NCBI GenBank assembly: GCA_946545475.1
Contig: CAMNNO010000007.1
Location: forward strand, 1 to 37,930
From: an uncultured Blautia sp.
Lineage (GTDB): Bacteria > Bacillota > Clostridia > Lachnospirales > Lachnospiraceae
DNA: 37,930 bases
Direction of reading: 5' to 3'
The notes below the pieces were generated by a model. That model was not told the origin of the DNA and made no database searches. It saw nothing but the letters and a program-made list of their open reading frames with translations. Of this stretch, positions 2,522 through 36,280 are shown piece after piece (the first letter of the stretch is position 1; every line of letters begins with the position of its first letter). Position numbers and translations under genes: made by a program.

Positions 2522-2654
2522 TATAGTATGCACACGGATTTTCAGCGGAATAATGCCGCTAAAGCGGCGAAAATTCGGCGCAGGAAACGAATGAAAACGC
2601 AAGCGTTTTATCCGTTTCCTATATATCCCGCGTTTTGTGTGTTCGTGAGCATAG
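2522..2654 (+). repeat. Type II intergenic palindromic element (copy A)
   Basis: TATAGTATGCACACGGATTTTCAGCGGAATAATGCCGCT...GGAAACGAATGAAAACGCAAGCGTTTTATCCGTTTCCTATA...GTTCGTGAGCATAG; close match to the reverse complement of 36077-36209. Confidence 0.88.
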
Positions 2655-5637: not shown

Positions 5638-6876
5638 ATGAACAGAGAGTTAATAGAGGCGATGGATGTTCTGGAAAAGGAGAAGAGCATCAGCAAAAAG
5701 ACTCTGTTGGAAGCCATTCAACAATCTCTGATCCAGGCCTGCAAAAATCATTTTGGCAAGGCCGACAACATTGAAGTCAACATTAATGAGGAAACCGGCG
5801 ATTTTAAGGTCTTTGCCGACCGGACGGTGGTGGAGATGGTGGAAGATCCGGCTCTCCAGGTTTCCCTTGAGGACGCTCAGAAGATCAACACAAACGCGAA
5901 CATCGGCGACATCGTCAAGGTAGAGATAAAGTCCCGGGAATTTGGCCGCATCGCCACCCAGAATGCCAAAAACGTCATCCTGCAGAAGATAAGGGAAGAG
6001 GAGAGAAAAGCCCTCTTTGAGCAGTATTACAGCATCGAAAAGCAGGTGGTGACAGGCATCGTCCAGCGCGTGGTGGGCAAGACCATCAGCATAGACCTGG
6101 GCAATGTGGACGCCGTCCTCAACGAAAACGAGCAGGTCAAGGGCGAAGTCTTCAAGCCCACGGACCGCATCAAGATCTACATCCTGGAAGTCAAGGATAC
6201 GCCCAAAGGCCCCCGCATCCAGGTTTCCCGTACCCATCCCGGCCTTGTCAAGCGCCTGTTTGAATCGGAGGTCGCCGAGGTGCGGGACGGGACCGTGGAG
6301 ATCAAATGTATCGCCAGGGAGGCCGGTTCCCGGACCAAGATCGCCGTTTACAGCAACGACCCGAATGTCGACGCGGTCGGCGCCTGCGTAGGCGTTAACG
6401 GCATCCGCGTCAACACCATCGTCAACGAGCTGAAAGGCGAGAAAATCGACATCATCAACTGGGACGAGAACCCCGCCCTGCTCATCGAAAATGCCTTAAG
6501 CCCGGCCAAGGTCATTGCTGTCCTGGCCGATCCGGATGAAAAAACGGCCCTTGTGGTCGTGCCGGATTATCAGCTGTCTCTGGCTATCGGCAAGGAAGGA
6601 CAGAACGCCCGTCTGGCTGCCAGGCTGACCGGCTTCAAGATCGATATCAAGAGCGAGAGCCAGGCCAAGGCCGCCGGCGATGATTACGATTACTACGACG
6701 ACGAATACGACGAGGAGGACGAGTTCGCCGGGGCCGGCGAAAACGATCCGGAAAGCTCTTCGCAAGGTGAGCCTGCGGAAGAGCCCTCAGAGCCTTTAGA
6801 TCAGGAAGAGCCTTTAGATCAGGAAGAGCCTTTAGATCAGGAAGAAGTTTCGGAACAGGAAGAACCTTTGGAATGA
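5638..6876 (+). CDS. nusA: Transcription termination/antitermination factor NusA with acidic C-terminal tail
   Basis: S1/KH regions ([49 protein letters not shown]); tail [15 protein letters not shown]...PLDQEE. Confidence 0.97.
6790..6843 (+). repeat. 18-bp coding tandem repeat x3 (EPLDQE)
   Basis: GAGCCTTTAGATCAGGAA three perfect copies in the nusA 3' end. Confidence 0.93.
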
Positions 6877-7172
6877 GTACGAACATAAATGCCGTTAAAA
6901 AAAATAAGGTTCCTCTCCGCCAATGCGTCGGCTGCAAGGAGATGCGCAGCAAGAAAGAGCTCCTTCGCATTGTCCGGACCGAGGAGGGACATGTCATGCT
7001 GGACCCCACCGGAAGGAAAAACGGAAGGGGCGCCTACATCTGCCCTTCCAGGGACTGCCTGAAGCTGGCCATAAAAAACCATGGCCTTAACCGGACGCTG
7101 AAATGCGAGGTGGGCGAGAGCGTGTACGAGGAACTGGAAAAGGAGCTGGAAGCACTTGAAAAACCAGAATAA
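6873..7172 (+). CDS. rnpM: YlxR/RnpM family nucleic acid-binding protein
   Basis: PLRQCVGCKEMRSKKELLRIVRT...GRGAYICPSRDCLKLA. Confidence 0.93.
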   Translation: MSTNINAVKKNKVPLRQCVGCKEMRSKKELLRIVRTEEGHVMLDPTGRKNGRGAYICPSRDCLKLAIKNHGLNRTLKCEVGESVYEELEKELEALEKPE

Positions 7173-7500: not shown

Positions 7501-7604
7501 TATACTAAAAGTACTTGAAAATTACCACCGGTAATTTTCTTAGTACTTCTGCATATACCGCGGCACAGAATTAAAAAGTGTATTTTATTGTGTTCGCGAG
7601 TATA
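7501..7604 (+). repeat. Type I intergenic palindromic element (copy B), 104 bp
   Basis: TATACTAAAAGTACTTGAAAATTACCACCGGTAATTTTCTTAGTACTTCTGCATATACCGCGGCACAGAATT...GTGTTCGCGAGTATA. Confidence 0.88.
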
Positions 7605-7637: not shown

Positions 7638-10600
7638 TTGGATACTCCAAACAATGAAATAAATACATCAGCCGCGTCCGAAAACAAGGACGATTCCCAG
7701 AAGAAAAAGAAGAATATCATCCGCATCTATCACGCCCAGAATGCCAGCGACACCGGCCGCGGCAGGGGAAACGCGGATAGCCAGAGGTCCAGGCGCCAGC
7801 GCCCGGCCGCAGCGGCAAAGCCCGCGGCGGAAGCCGAAAAGAAAGCGCCGGCCGAAGACGCGGCAGCGGCCCCTGCGCCCAAGGCAGCGCCGGCCGCCGA
7901 GGAGAAGAAAGAGACGGCAGCAGCTGCCGCAAAGAAAACCGCAGCGGTAACGGAAAAGAAACCGGCCGCCTCCGAGACGGAAAAGAAGGCTTCTCCTGCC
8001 GAAACCGAAAAGAAAGCCGCTGCCCCTGAGACCGAAAAGAAAGCCGCTGCCTCTGAAATAGAAAAGAAAGCCGCTGCCCCTGAGATAGAAAAGAAAGCCG
8101 CTGCCCCTGAGATAGAAAAGAAAGTCGCTGCCCCTGAGATAGAAAAGAAAGTCGCTGCCCCTGAGATGGAAAAGAAAGCTGCTGCCCACGAGATAGAAAA
8201 GAAAGCTGCTGCTCATGAGATAGAAAAGAAAGCTGTTGCCCATGAGATAGAAAAGAAACCGGCCGCCTCCGAGGCGGAAAAGAAACCGGCTCCTGCCGAG
8301 ACCGAGAAGAAAGCCGCGGCAGCAGAAAAGAAAGCGGCTGCCCCCGAGACGGAAAAGAAACCGGCTCCTGCGGAAACCGAAAAGAAGCCCGCTGCTGCCG
8401 AGAAAAAGCCCGCTGCCGCGGAGCCCGAGAAAAAGGCAGCGCCCGCGGAAGAGGTGAAGCCCTCAGCCGCTCCCGAAGGGGAAAAGAAGGCCTCCGAGGC
8501 TAAGGGCGCTCCCCGCAGGGATGACCGCCGCCCGCAGGGCGACAGGCGCGAAAACAAGCCCGCCGCCGGCGGCCGGGATGACAGAGCCGGAAGGCCATAT
8601 GACGCCCGCGCCCAGAGAACGGACGGAGCGGCCGGAAGGCGCGATGGCAGTACCAGAACCGATGGCCGCACCGGCACAAGGAGCGACGGCTCCCAGGGAA
8701 ATCGCGCCGGCGTAAGGAGCGACGGCTCCCAGCAGGGCCGCCAGGGCAGGACCGACGGGGGTGAGCGCCGGGGCGACATGGGCGGACGCCGCGACGGCCA
8801 GGGCCAGGGAAGGCCCGCCTCCCAGACACGCCCGCCCCGCGATGGCGCCGGCATGTCCGCGCGTCCGTATGGCGATGGCACCGGCGCCCAGAGAGGCACC
8901 GGCCGTCCCGGCGGCAGTACAGGCAGTCCCCGCTTTGGGCAGGGCGGCCGTCCCACGGGAGGCCAGGGCAGCTTTGGAGGCGATGGCGCTGGCAGGTCCT
9001 TCGGCCAGGGACAGGGCCGTCCCTCCGGCCAGGGAAGAGGTGGCCAGGGCGGCCGCCGTCAGGATGCCGGCGCAGCCTTCGCGCCCGAGATGTCCAAGAA
9101 CCAGAAGGACAGCAAGCGCGAGCGCGACAGGGAAAACAAGAACAAAAACAACCGCAAGGATTACGACCAGGCTCCGGCAAACCAGGGCAAGAGGCCGGGC
9201 CAGGGCGGAGTGAAGGGCGGTCCGAAAACAACCGTCAAGCCGGTGACCGCACCCAAGATCGAGGAAAAGAAGCCCGAGGTCAAGGAGATCACCCTTCCCG
9301 AGAAGCTGACCATAAGGGAGCTGGCCGAAGCCATGAAGGTGCAGCCCTCCGTTATCGTGAAGAAGCTCTTCCTCCAGGGCGTCATGGTGACCGTCAACCA
9401 GGAGATCGACTTTGAAAAAGCCCAGGAGATTGCCCTGGAATACGATATCATCGCCGAAAAGGAAGAGAAGGTCAACGTCATCGAAGAGCTCCTCAAGGAA
9501 GCCGACGAGGACGAGGCGACCATGGTGAGCCGTCCGCCCGTCGTGTGCGTCATGGGCCATGTTGACCACGGCAAGACATCCCTCCTGGATGCCATCCGGA
9601 ACACCAATGTCACCCGCGGCGAGGCCGGCGGCATCACCCAGCACATCGGCGCTTATGTTGTGGAGATCAACGGCCAGAAGATCACCTTCCTGGATACGCC
9701 GGGACATGAAGCCTTTACCGCCATGCGTATGCGCGGGGCGAATGCCACGGATATCGCGGTGCTCGTGGTCGCCGCCGACGACGGTGTCATGCCTCAGACC
9801 ATAGAGGCCATCAGCCATGCCAAGGCGGCTGGCGTCACCATCATCGTGGCTATCAACAAGATCGACAAGCCCGGCGCCAACATCGACAGGGTCAAGCAGG
9901 GCCTGGCCGAGCAGGGCCTGGTTCCCGAGGACTGGGGCGGCGACACGGTATTCGCCGAGGTTTCCGCCAAGACCGGCGAGGGCATCGATAACCTCCTGGA
10001 GATGATCCTGCTCACCGCCGAAATGGCCGAGCTCAAGGCCAATCCCAACCGGGATGCCAGGGGCCTTGTCATCGAGGCCGAGCTGGATAAGGGCAAGGGC
10101 CCCGTGGCCACCATCCTGGTCCAGAAGGGCACCCTGCATGTGGGCGATTTCATCGCCGCCGGTGCCTGCAGCGGCAAGGTCCGCGCCATGATGGACGATA
10201 AGGGACGCCGGGTTAAGGAAGCCGGTCCCTCCACGCCTGTGGAGATCCTGGGCCTTAACGACGTGCCCAACGCCGGCGAGGTGCTCATGGCCTTCGACAG
10301 CGACAAGGAAGCCAAGAACTTTGCGGGCGCCTTTGTCTCGGAAAACAAGAACCGCCTGCTGGAGGAGACCAAGGGCAAGCTCTCCCTGGATAACCTCTTT
10401 GACCAGATGCATGTCAACGATCTCAAGGAGCTGCCCATCATCGTCAAGGCCGATGTGCAGGGCTCCGTGGAGGCTGTGCGCCAGAGCCTTGTCAAGCTCT
10501 CCAACGATGAAGTCATCGTCAAGGTCATCCACGGCGGCGTCGGCGCCATCAACGAGTCCGATGTCAGCCTGGCGGCCACCTCAAACGCCATCATCATCGG

Positions 10601-11486: not shown

Positions 11487-11639
11487 ATGCGCACGGATTT
11501 TCGAAGCAAAAGTGGCGAAAATCCGGCGCAGGAAATATACCAGTTACACTTAATAGTTGCTGAAAGTAACTATTCTAGTGTAACTGCATATACCGCGGCA
11601 CGGAATTTAAAACGGCAGTCAGATTCGTTCGCGAGTATA
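11487..11639 (+). repeat. Composite intergenic element (copy C): partial type II module plus complete 104-bp type I unit (11536-11639)
   Basis: ATGCGCACGGATTTTCG...GGCGAAAATCCGGCGCAGGAAATATA, then TATACCAGTTACACT...GCATATACCGCGGCACGGAATT...GTTCGCGAGTATA. Confidence 0.85.
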
Positions 11640-17400: not shown

Positions 17401-17410
17401 TATACACCAG

Positions 17411-17475
17411 GAAGAAATGGGGACGGTTCTTTTTTCTTACGAATCACAAGAAAAAAGAACCGTCCCCATTTCTTC
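17411..17475. repeat. Perfect 28-bp inverted repeat, GGGGACGG REP-like hairpin
   Basis: GAAGAAATGGGGACGGTTCTTTTTTCTT-acgaatcac-AAGAAAAAAGAACCGTCCCCATTTCTTC. Confidence 0.95.
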
Positions 17476-17502
17476 CCCGCAGCGAAGGATGAAAGGCAAA
17501 GC

Positions 17503-35302: not shown

Positions 35303-35406
35303 TTATAGTATGCGCACGAATTTTTTGTGAAATTATGCCGCTTACGCGGCGAAAATTCGGCGCAGGAAACGAATCAAAACGCAAGCGCTTTATTCGTTTT
35401 CTATAT
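35303..35406 (+). repeat. Type II intergenic palindromic element (copy E), right-end module not evident
   Basis: TATAGTATGCGCACGAATTTT...ATGCCGCTTACGCGGCGAAAATTCGGCGCAGGAAACGAATCAAAACGCAAGCGCTTTATTCGTTTTCTATA. Confidence 0.86.
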
Positions 35407-36076: not shown

Positions 36077-36280
36077 TATACTCGCGCACGCAGAAAACGA
36101 CACTTTATAGGAAACGAATAAAACGCTTGCGTTTTCATTCGTTTCCCGCGCACGAATTTTCGCCGCTGTAAGCGGCATCATTCCGCTGAAAATTCGTGCG
36201 CCTACTATAATTCTGTGCCGCGGTATATGCAGAAGGACTAAGAAAATTACCGTTGGTAATTTTCAAGTACTTCTAGTATA
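36077..36280 (-). repeat. Composite intergenic element (copy F): 104-bp type I with a ~100-bp type II hairpin block inside, 204 bp
   Basis: On the minus strand: TATACTAGAAGTACTTG...GCATATACCGCGGCACAGAATT, TATAGTAGGCGCACGAATTTTCAGCGG...TTCGTTTCCTATA, AAGTGT...GCGCGAGTATA. Confidence 0.9.

Follow-up and report, generated by a model that had tools for sequence, protein, structure and literature searches.

The window analysed here, the whole stretch of 37,930 nt at positions 1-37,930 of contig CAMNNO010000007.1 from an uncultured Blautia sp. (GCA_946545475.1), carries two intact copies and one split copy of a palindromic element that we call type I, together with copies of a sister MITE, type II. 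The features are as follows.

2522..2623, + strand: type II sister MITE (TATAGTATGC...TTTCCTATA), with two hairpins and TATAG ends
7501..7604, + strand: type I unit of subfamily Ia, 104 bp, with a ylxQ-like gene upstream and infB downstream
7506..7551, + strand: hairpin A of this Ia copy, of consensus layout with the outer stem cut to 7 bp
7554..7604, + strand: hairpin B of this Ia copy, its inner TATACCGCG arm paired with the terminal CGCGAGTATA arm
11536..11639, + strand: type I unit of subfamily Ib (Ib2 stem variant AATAGTTGC/GTAACTATT), 104 bp, preceding an nrnA-like DHH gene
11541..11586, + strand: hairpin A of this Ib copy, with a private two-sided C-G to T-A change in the loop-closing pair
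11589..11639, + strand: hairpin B of this Ib copy
35304..35405, + strand: second intact copy of the type II sister MITE
36077..36107, - strand: right 31 nt of the split Ia unit, starting with the second TA copy and ending in CGCGAGTATA
36108..36207, - strand: type II element (TAGTAGGCGC...TTTCCTA) of 100 nt, interrupting the Ia unit at a TA, with TA on both sides
36208..36280, - strand: left 73 nt of the split Ia unit (TATACTAG... to GAATTA)

Both 104-bp units have the coordinates, ends and core that a preliminary description had assigned to them, and the reverse copy it had seen as split within 36077-36280 is indeed a type I unit, its 73 and 31 nt flanking a 100-nt insert. The first and last two bases of the unit at 7501..7604 are the flanking TA duplicates. 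Between TATAC and GTATA ends, type I consists of two hairpins, A and B, and its terminal inverted repeats, TATACT(A)G and TATACTCGCG, are short (~6-10 bp). The best pairing of hairpin A, in Ia and Ib alike, is 10 bp, a 1x2 internal loop, a further 10 bp and a 3-nt loop; the 9-bp inner stem and 2x3 internal loop proposed earlier give way to 10 bp and a 1x2 loop. Damage at the base of the outer stem leaves 7 bp in the 7501 copy. Hairpin B, which comprises the core and the right end, had been missed altogether. The two intact window copies fold much more stably than dinucleotide shuffles of them, with z scores of -5.3 and -6.1. A role for hairpin A as an intrinsic terminator was considered and rejected, as no T-run follows the hairpin on either strand.

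The type I set of this genome falls into two subfamilies. Hairpin A reads TATACTAGAAGTACT-T-GAAAATTACC-ACC-GGTAATTTTC-TT-AGTACTTCTGCATATACCGCGG... in Ia and TATACTAGTTACACT-T-AATAATTGCC-GGA-GGCAATTATT-CT-AGTGTAACTGCATATACCGCGG... in Ib, and the interior of hairpin B differs between them as well. In the copy at L077:6827-6930 an Ia hairpin A is followed by an Ib hairpin B, which indicates that the halves of type I recombine.

Other repeats also lie in the window. A perfect 29-bp hairpin at 17410-17476 (GGAAGAAATGGGGACGGTTCTTTTTTCTT and its complement) probably represents a third repeat family, since its GAACCGTCCCC stretch is found again beside type I copies on other contigs. A truncated type II hairpin (11487-11528) immediately precedes the type I unit at 11536, the two together forming a mosaic of both families. 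Three 58-bp tandem repeats occupy 1-174 at the contig edge, upstream of a tRNA at 303, and tandem 16-bp palindromic units (AAAGAAAGTGTTCTTT) follow the tRNA at 470-538. Tandem repeats of 18 bp (6 aa) are found at 6771-6878 in the acidic nusA C-terminus, and a 27-bp repeat array (9 aa, rich in E-K-K-A) spans 7872-8500 in the N-terminal part of infB, whose product IF-2 is unusually long (1130 aa).

The type I core, GCATATACCGCGGCACNGAATT, has three matches in the window, where 0.13 would be expected. The family proposed in the preliminary description implied further copies genome-wide, and these exist: with up to three mismatches the core matches 138 times in the 3.33-Mb genome, while the reversed control pattern gives 0. 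In all, 88 full copies were extracted, including 8 from another species; 58 of the 88 are exactly 104 bp long and 14 are 105 bp. Being short (<500 bp), free of any coding gene and present in many copies, type I has the general properties of a MITE, in line with the small non-autonomous element family that had been suggested. The family had not been recognised at that stage, and it is absent from Rfam (no match at gathering score, nothing notable below threshold) and from the literature searched; viral contigs, plasmid and phage records and a literature string search gave no type I match. The units are mostly intergenic: 3 of 73 full units overlap ORFs of at least 100 aa, although such ORFs make up 85% of the DNA, the gene-context counts here and below being based on 73 full units in 1.44 Mb (~43% of the genome) and on crude, longest-ORF gene calls.

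In an order-wide sample of 395 genomes, more than two core matches were found only in this genome, and the others showed single or double matches at 2-3 mismatches, near control. Within the genus the core matched four times in G036 and once each in G030 and G031. A covariance-model search of related genomes, as the preliminary description had envisaged, proved productive: of 65 genus genomes, 5 carry type I, among them G450 with 51 matches and G031 with 22, whose copies the core pattern largely misses. A scan of species genomes revealed one other carrier, CAMOSC01 (G428, from an uncultured Clostridia bacterium), which has roughly a dozen near-identical Ib units (L115-L136). These are ~94-96% identical to units of this genome, whereas outside the units a comparison spanning about one quarter of this genome gave a single 66% match. 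Since the units are near-identical while other DNA is barely alignable, the sequences suggest that type I may recently have been transferred horizontally between the two, both of which are metagenome bins. A single type-I-like unit in another genus (G494, L293:1501-1604) has the same core and right end, and its hairpin A has unrelated arms, AACGAAAAT...ATTTTCGTT. The range of type I is one genus and two other records.

The preliminary description had held, from the window copies, that type I conserves structure over sequence. As the two intact copies belong to Ia and Ib, their covariation amounts to one subfamily split, and many more copies were therefore required for a test. In 30 diverse copies, 10 of the 20 pairs of hairpin A have changed on both sides, 97.3% of cells are paired, and shuffling lowers the covariation score from 0.289 to 0.132, most of the covariation in this set being the Ia/Ib split. 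The compensatory covariation is thus genuine. Hairpin arms in G450 (AGAGGgTCT-T-AATACGTGGAA...TTCCACGTATT-T-AGAgCCTCT) and in G031 (AGAAGTACT-T-AATATCC...GGATATT-TT-AGTACTTCT) leave the layout unchanged, and across five species there are subfamilies with differing arms and a common bulged hairpin. Because the genus matches stemmed from a structure model, we repeated the count in 102 distinct copies, anchored solely on distance from the conserved flanks and with the right arms shuffled as control. Outer-stem pairing was 86.9% against 69.6% shuffled (maximum 74.6% of 1000), and three middle pairs each occur as two or three different Watson-Crick types. Conservation of structure over sequence is thereby confirmed and extended to the subfamilies of other species.

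How the arms come to match is a separate question. One explanation is that the fold itself is selected, hairpin A acting either as RNA (for example as a site of RNase III or other RNase processing within co-transcribed operons) or as an extruded DNA form that mobilisation requires, with the covariation reflecting classical compensatory evolution. The strong covariation across subfamilies and species speaks for it, as do the strong folding on both strands, the cleavage of Correia-bearing mRNAs by RNase III (reviewed in PMC10969869) and the T / (Y)T internal loop and G450 G-G mismatch, which outlast changes of neighbouring pairs; the G-G mismatch is kept in two G450 subfamilies despite a flipped neighbouring pair. 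However, private changes are as frequent in the stem (17.0 per 1000 sites) as elsewhere (loop 12.1, right end 14.5, middle 22.7; the 2.4 in the core is partly circular, because the copies were found by their core), and one-sided stem transitions yield G-U (12) no more often than A-C (11), contrary to RNA constraint on settled copies. Settled copies are therefore not visibly constrained. Nor is there an orientation preference relative to genes, the neighbour-gene orientation classes matching background, with 24 sense and 15 antisense units in co-directional gaps. Moreover, template switching generates pairs without selection. The step from covariation to selection on a folded RNA or single-stranded DNA, which the preliminary description had taken, is thus unsupported as stated, and selection on the fold is a possible account but not one that we favour.

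Template switching can be seen in individual copies. In copy L009 the left arm and loop are the exact reverse complement of the right arm and loop: the loop has changed from ACC to GGT, the internal loop has been perfected, and one extra pair has changed on both sides. Such a combination is explicable by a single arm-rewriting event, and in the description of template switching in PMC8794818, compensatory change with loop inversion is its strongest footprint. Copy L045 is perfected in the same direction as L009, copies L059 and L062 in the opposite direction, and the G450 copies L215, L228 and L231 likewise; the longest perfect stem, typically 10 bp (11 in G450), is 15-21 in perfected copies, and perfect palindromes of 19-21 bp are seen for both directions. 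In addition, 69 copies have 7 restored two-sided pairs beside 58 one-sided changes; had the changes been independent, only ~0.2 restored pairs would be expected by our estimate. These data would fit a process in which arm template switching alone keeps the complementarity and the shape is unselected. We nevertheless consider such pure mutation bias rather unlikely, since template switching tends to erase internal loops and the loop should have vanished, yet one is kept in the main forms of all subfamilies and in most Ia, Ib, G450, G031 and G036 copies, while perfected copies are few and mostly private.

The evidence instead suggests that mutation bias creates the arm matches and that some constraint on active copies preserves the bulge. 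Replication template switching, visible in single copies, rewrites one arm of hairpin A from the other, and a constraint on the copies that multiply would retain the bulged shape. This second half we infer from the persistence of the internal loop across subfamilies, which could also be plain descent of three unpaired bases. Because settled copies drift freely, hairpin A would matter, if at all, for spreading and not for the neighbouring host gene. In a bolder version, which we hold to be quite improbable, mobilisation would involve a direct reading of the bulged hairpin A, either in extruded DNA or in RNA, and recognition of this TA-inserting element would depend in part on shape; template switching could then alter the arms freely, provided that the hairpin of 10 bp, bulge and 8-11 bp kept its distance of 5 nt from the left end. 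Hairpin B may undergo template switching as well, because in the G031 copy L208:131-233 hairpin B is a near-perfect ~24-bp palindrome (TATACTGCGCTGGAACAAATAAAT...ATTTATTTGTTCCAGCGCTAGTATA).

The mobility of type I is most evident from nested insertions, in which 14 of the 88 full copies sit within another type I copy. The sites used are two TTAA-like places (positions 72 and 85), in both orientations, and excising the inner unit and one TA rebuilds the interrupted consensus, in the best cases at 25/26 or 26/26. TA stands on both sides of nested copies, as in the insertion with target duplication that characterises MITEs, although such a duplication, with ends that contain TA, is formally indistinguishable from a TA-ended element inserting without duplication. 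The type II insert that splits the Ia unit of the window is the same type of event. Among the target flanks of the 88 copies, T is found at -1 in 56 and A at +1 in 64, with an A/T preference at -3 and +2, both sides being constrained alike. TA is also the target site of IS630/Tc1-mariner-derived MITEs. By its insertion behaviour, type I fits a TA-specific cut-and-paste MITE.

A candidate for the mobiliser comes from the sister family. Type II has 158 matches above control in this genome and ~75 in G036, where its ends are TATAGTAAACGAAT, 14 nt that recur identically at an IS630 end of that genome; in G034 a complete IS630 is bounded on either side by TATAGTAAACG. Type II is very probably mobilised by an IS630-type transposase. 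The preliminary description had proposed looking for a full-length transposon or RAYT with the ends of type I; the sister family shares its ends with an autonomous IS630, whereas no such element was found for type I. Several other IS630s of the genus start with CTAG after TA, like the left end of type I, only CTAG being common. IS630-type DDE domains are present in 15 of 60 genus genomes; among the six type I carriers G036 has one, and none was found in the other five (this genome, G450, G441, G031 and G428), all carriers being fragmented draft genomes, in which multi-copy IS elements are often missing. When 13 IS630 proteins were compared by tblastn with 1.44 Mb of this genome, one trivial 26-residue match was the sole result, and the multi-copy ORFs of that DNA included no transposase. 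Where type I ends were paired around a long ORF, they enclosed only ordinary host genes. Since type II shares IS630 ends, and CTAG starts are shared with type I, an IS630-type mobiliser is our best inference for type I from sequence comparison. The hairpins of these MITEs may descend from hairpins beside one IS end.

Taken as a whole, the copies show that type I inserts at TA within T-TA-A-like sites, in both orientations and with TA on each side, nearly always between genes, and that it has multiplied to well over 100 copies. We propose that a TA-specific DDE transposase, presumably of the IS630/Tc1-mariner kind, moves it in trans, and that its arms are rewritten by template switching combined with a constraint on shape. 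We assign this explanation as a whole a probability of about 0.72.

Alternatively, type I might be a REP/BIME- or IS200/IS605-like single-strand element (HUH, Y1), the imperfect hairpin being read by the transposase. Its imperfect hairpin with a bulge near one end would agree with this, and the genome contains three Y1_Tnp matches. However, these three loci are ordinary IS200/IS605 elements with hairpins unlike those of type I and without type I ends, and a RAYT-linked origin was rejected on this basis. In addition, single-strand insertion constrains the 5' side only, whereas the target of type I is constrained equally on both sides, no GTAG-type tag is present, and the sister type II has IS630 ends. 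The REP/RAYT analogy drawn in the preliminary description thus finds no support, and a single-strand element is very improbable. A host regulatory RNA motif (riboswitch-like or leader) can practically be dismissed, for although both forward window copies lie within operons just upstream of conserved genes and the right end is <60 bp from a start codon in 16 copies, the nested insertions refute it as the primary nature of type I, and the inter-copy identity, the species-specific bursts and the lack of any gene or orientation association or Rfam match speak against it as well.

Covariation is what normally serves to prove that an RNA fold is functional. In type I, template switching is seen producing covariation, and its hundreds of sister copies reveal covariation arising in young copies without structural constraint. 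With unrelated-arm subfamilies and a persistent internal loop, the shares of mutation and selection could be separated quantitatively, and type I is of interest mainly as a test case for whether covariation proves a functional fold. If hairpin A were indeed read by shape, type I would be an element recognised by its structure without belonging to the known HUH or attC systems. The unnamed, high-copy type I and the IS630-linked type II are also additions to Clostridia genomes, and both disturb assembly and annotation.

Among known systems, the template-switch hairpins of PMC8794818 resemble copy L009 in that compensatory changes and loop inversion occur in one event, but those cases are rRNA and microRNA genes, whereas type I is a transposable element with many parallel copies. 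REP/BIME and REPIN elements are, like type I, high-copy intergenic palindromes with imperfect hairpins; their units measure 20-40 bp, carry tags and depend on Y1 transposases for movement (PMC3733652, PMC2817692). Their unit size and GTAG/CGTC tag do not agree with the 104 bp and TATAC/GTATA ends of type I, whose TA target is symmetric and to which no RAYT is linked. An IS200/IS605-derived palindromic element, with a 5'-flank-only target and no duplication, was rejected because the flanks of type I are constrained alike, and BOX, with its modular boxA-boxB-boxC order, because type I has a fixed two-hairpin 104-bp layout without variable central modules.

Correia elements insert at TA and have TATAG ends. 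These MITEs of Neisseria, also known as NEMIS, are 100-155 bp long, and RNase III cleaves their folded transcripts (PMC10969869, PMC2229807). They differ from type I in sequence, and their termini are long inverted repeats, whereas those of type I are ~6-10 bp. The CIR elements of Caulobacter and relatives, ~110 bp with two long inverted repeats that form two arms and a linker (PMC2229807), have only the two-hairpin layout in common with type I; they contain GANTC methylation sites and belong to another phylum.

RUP, which the preliminary description had named as an analogue, is of the right kind. In PMC2229807 and PMC3049150 it is described as 107 bp long with ~108-110 intergenic copies, a TA target and a folded structure, and is attributed to IS630-Spn1, an IS630. 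By that description it resembles type I in size, intergenic copy number, TA target and fold. It differs in sequence and host, and its ends resemble an IS630 of the same genome, whereas those of type I match none found; the portion of PMC3049150 considered contains neither the term covariation nor subfamilies with differing arms. Type I is a new MITE family, and its behaviour is nearest to that of RUP.
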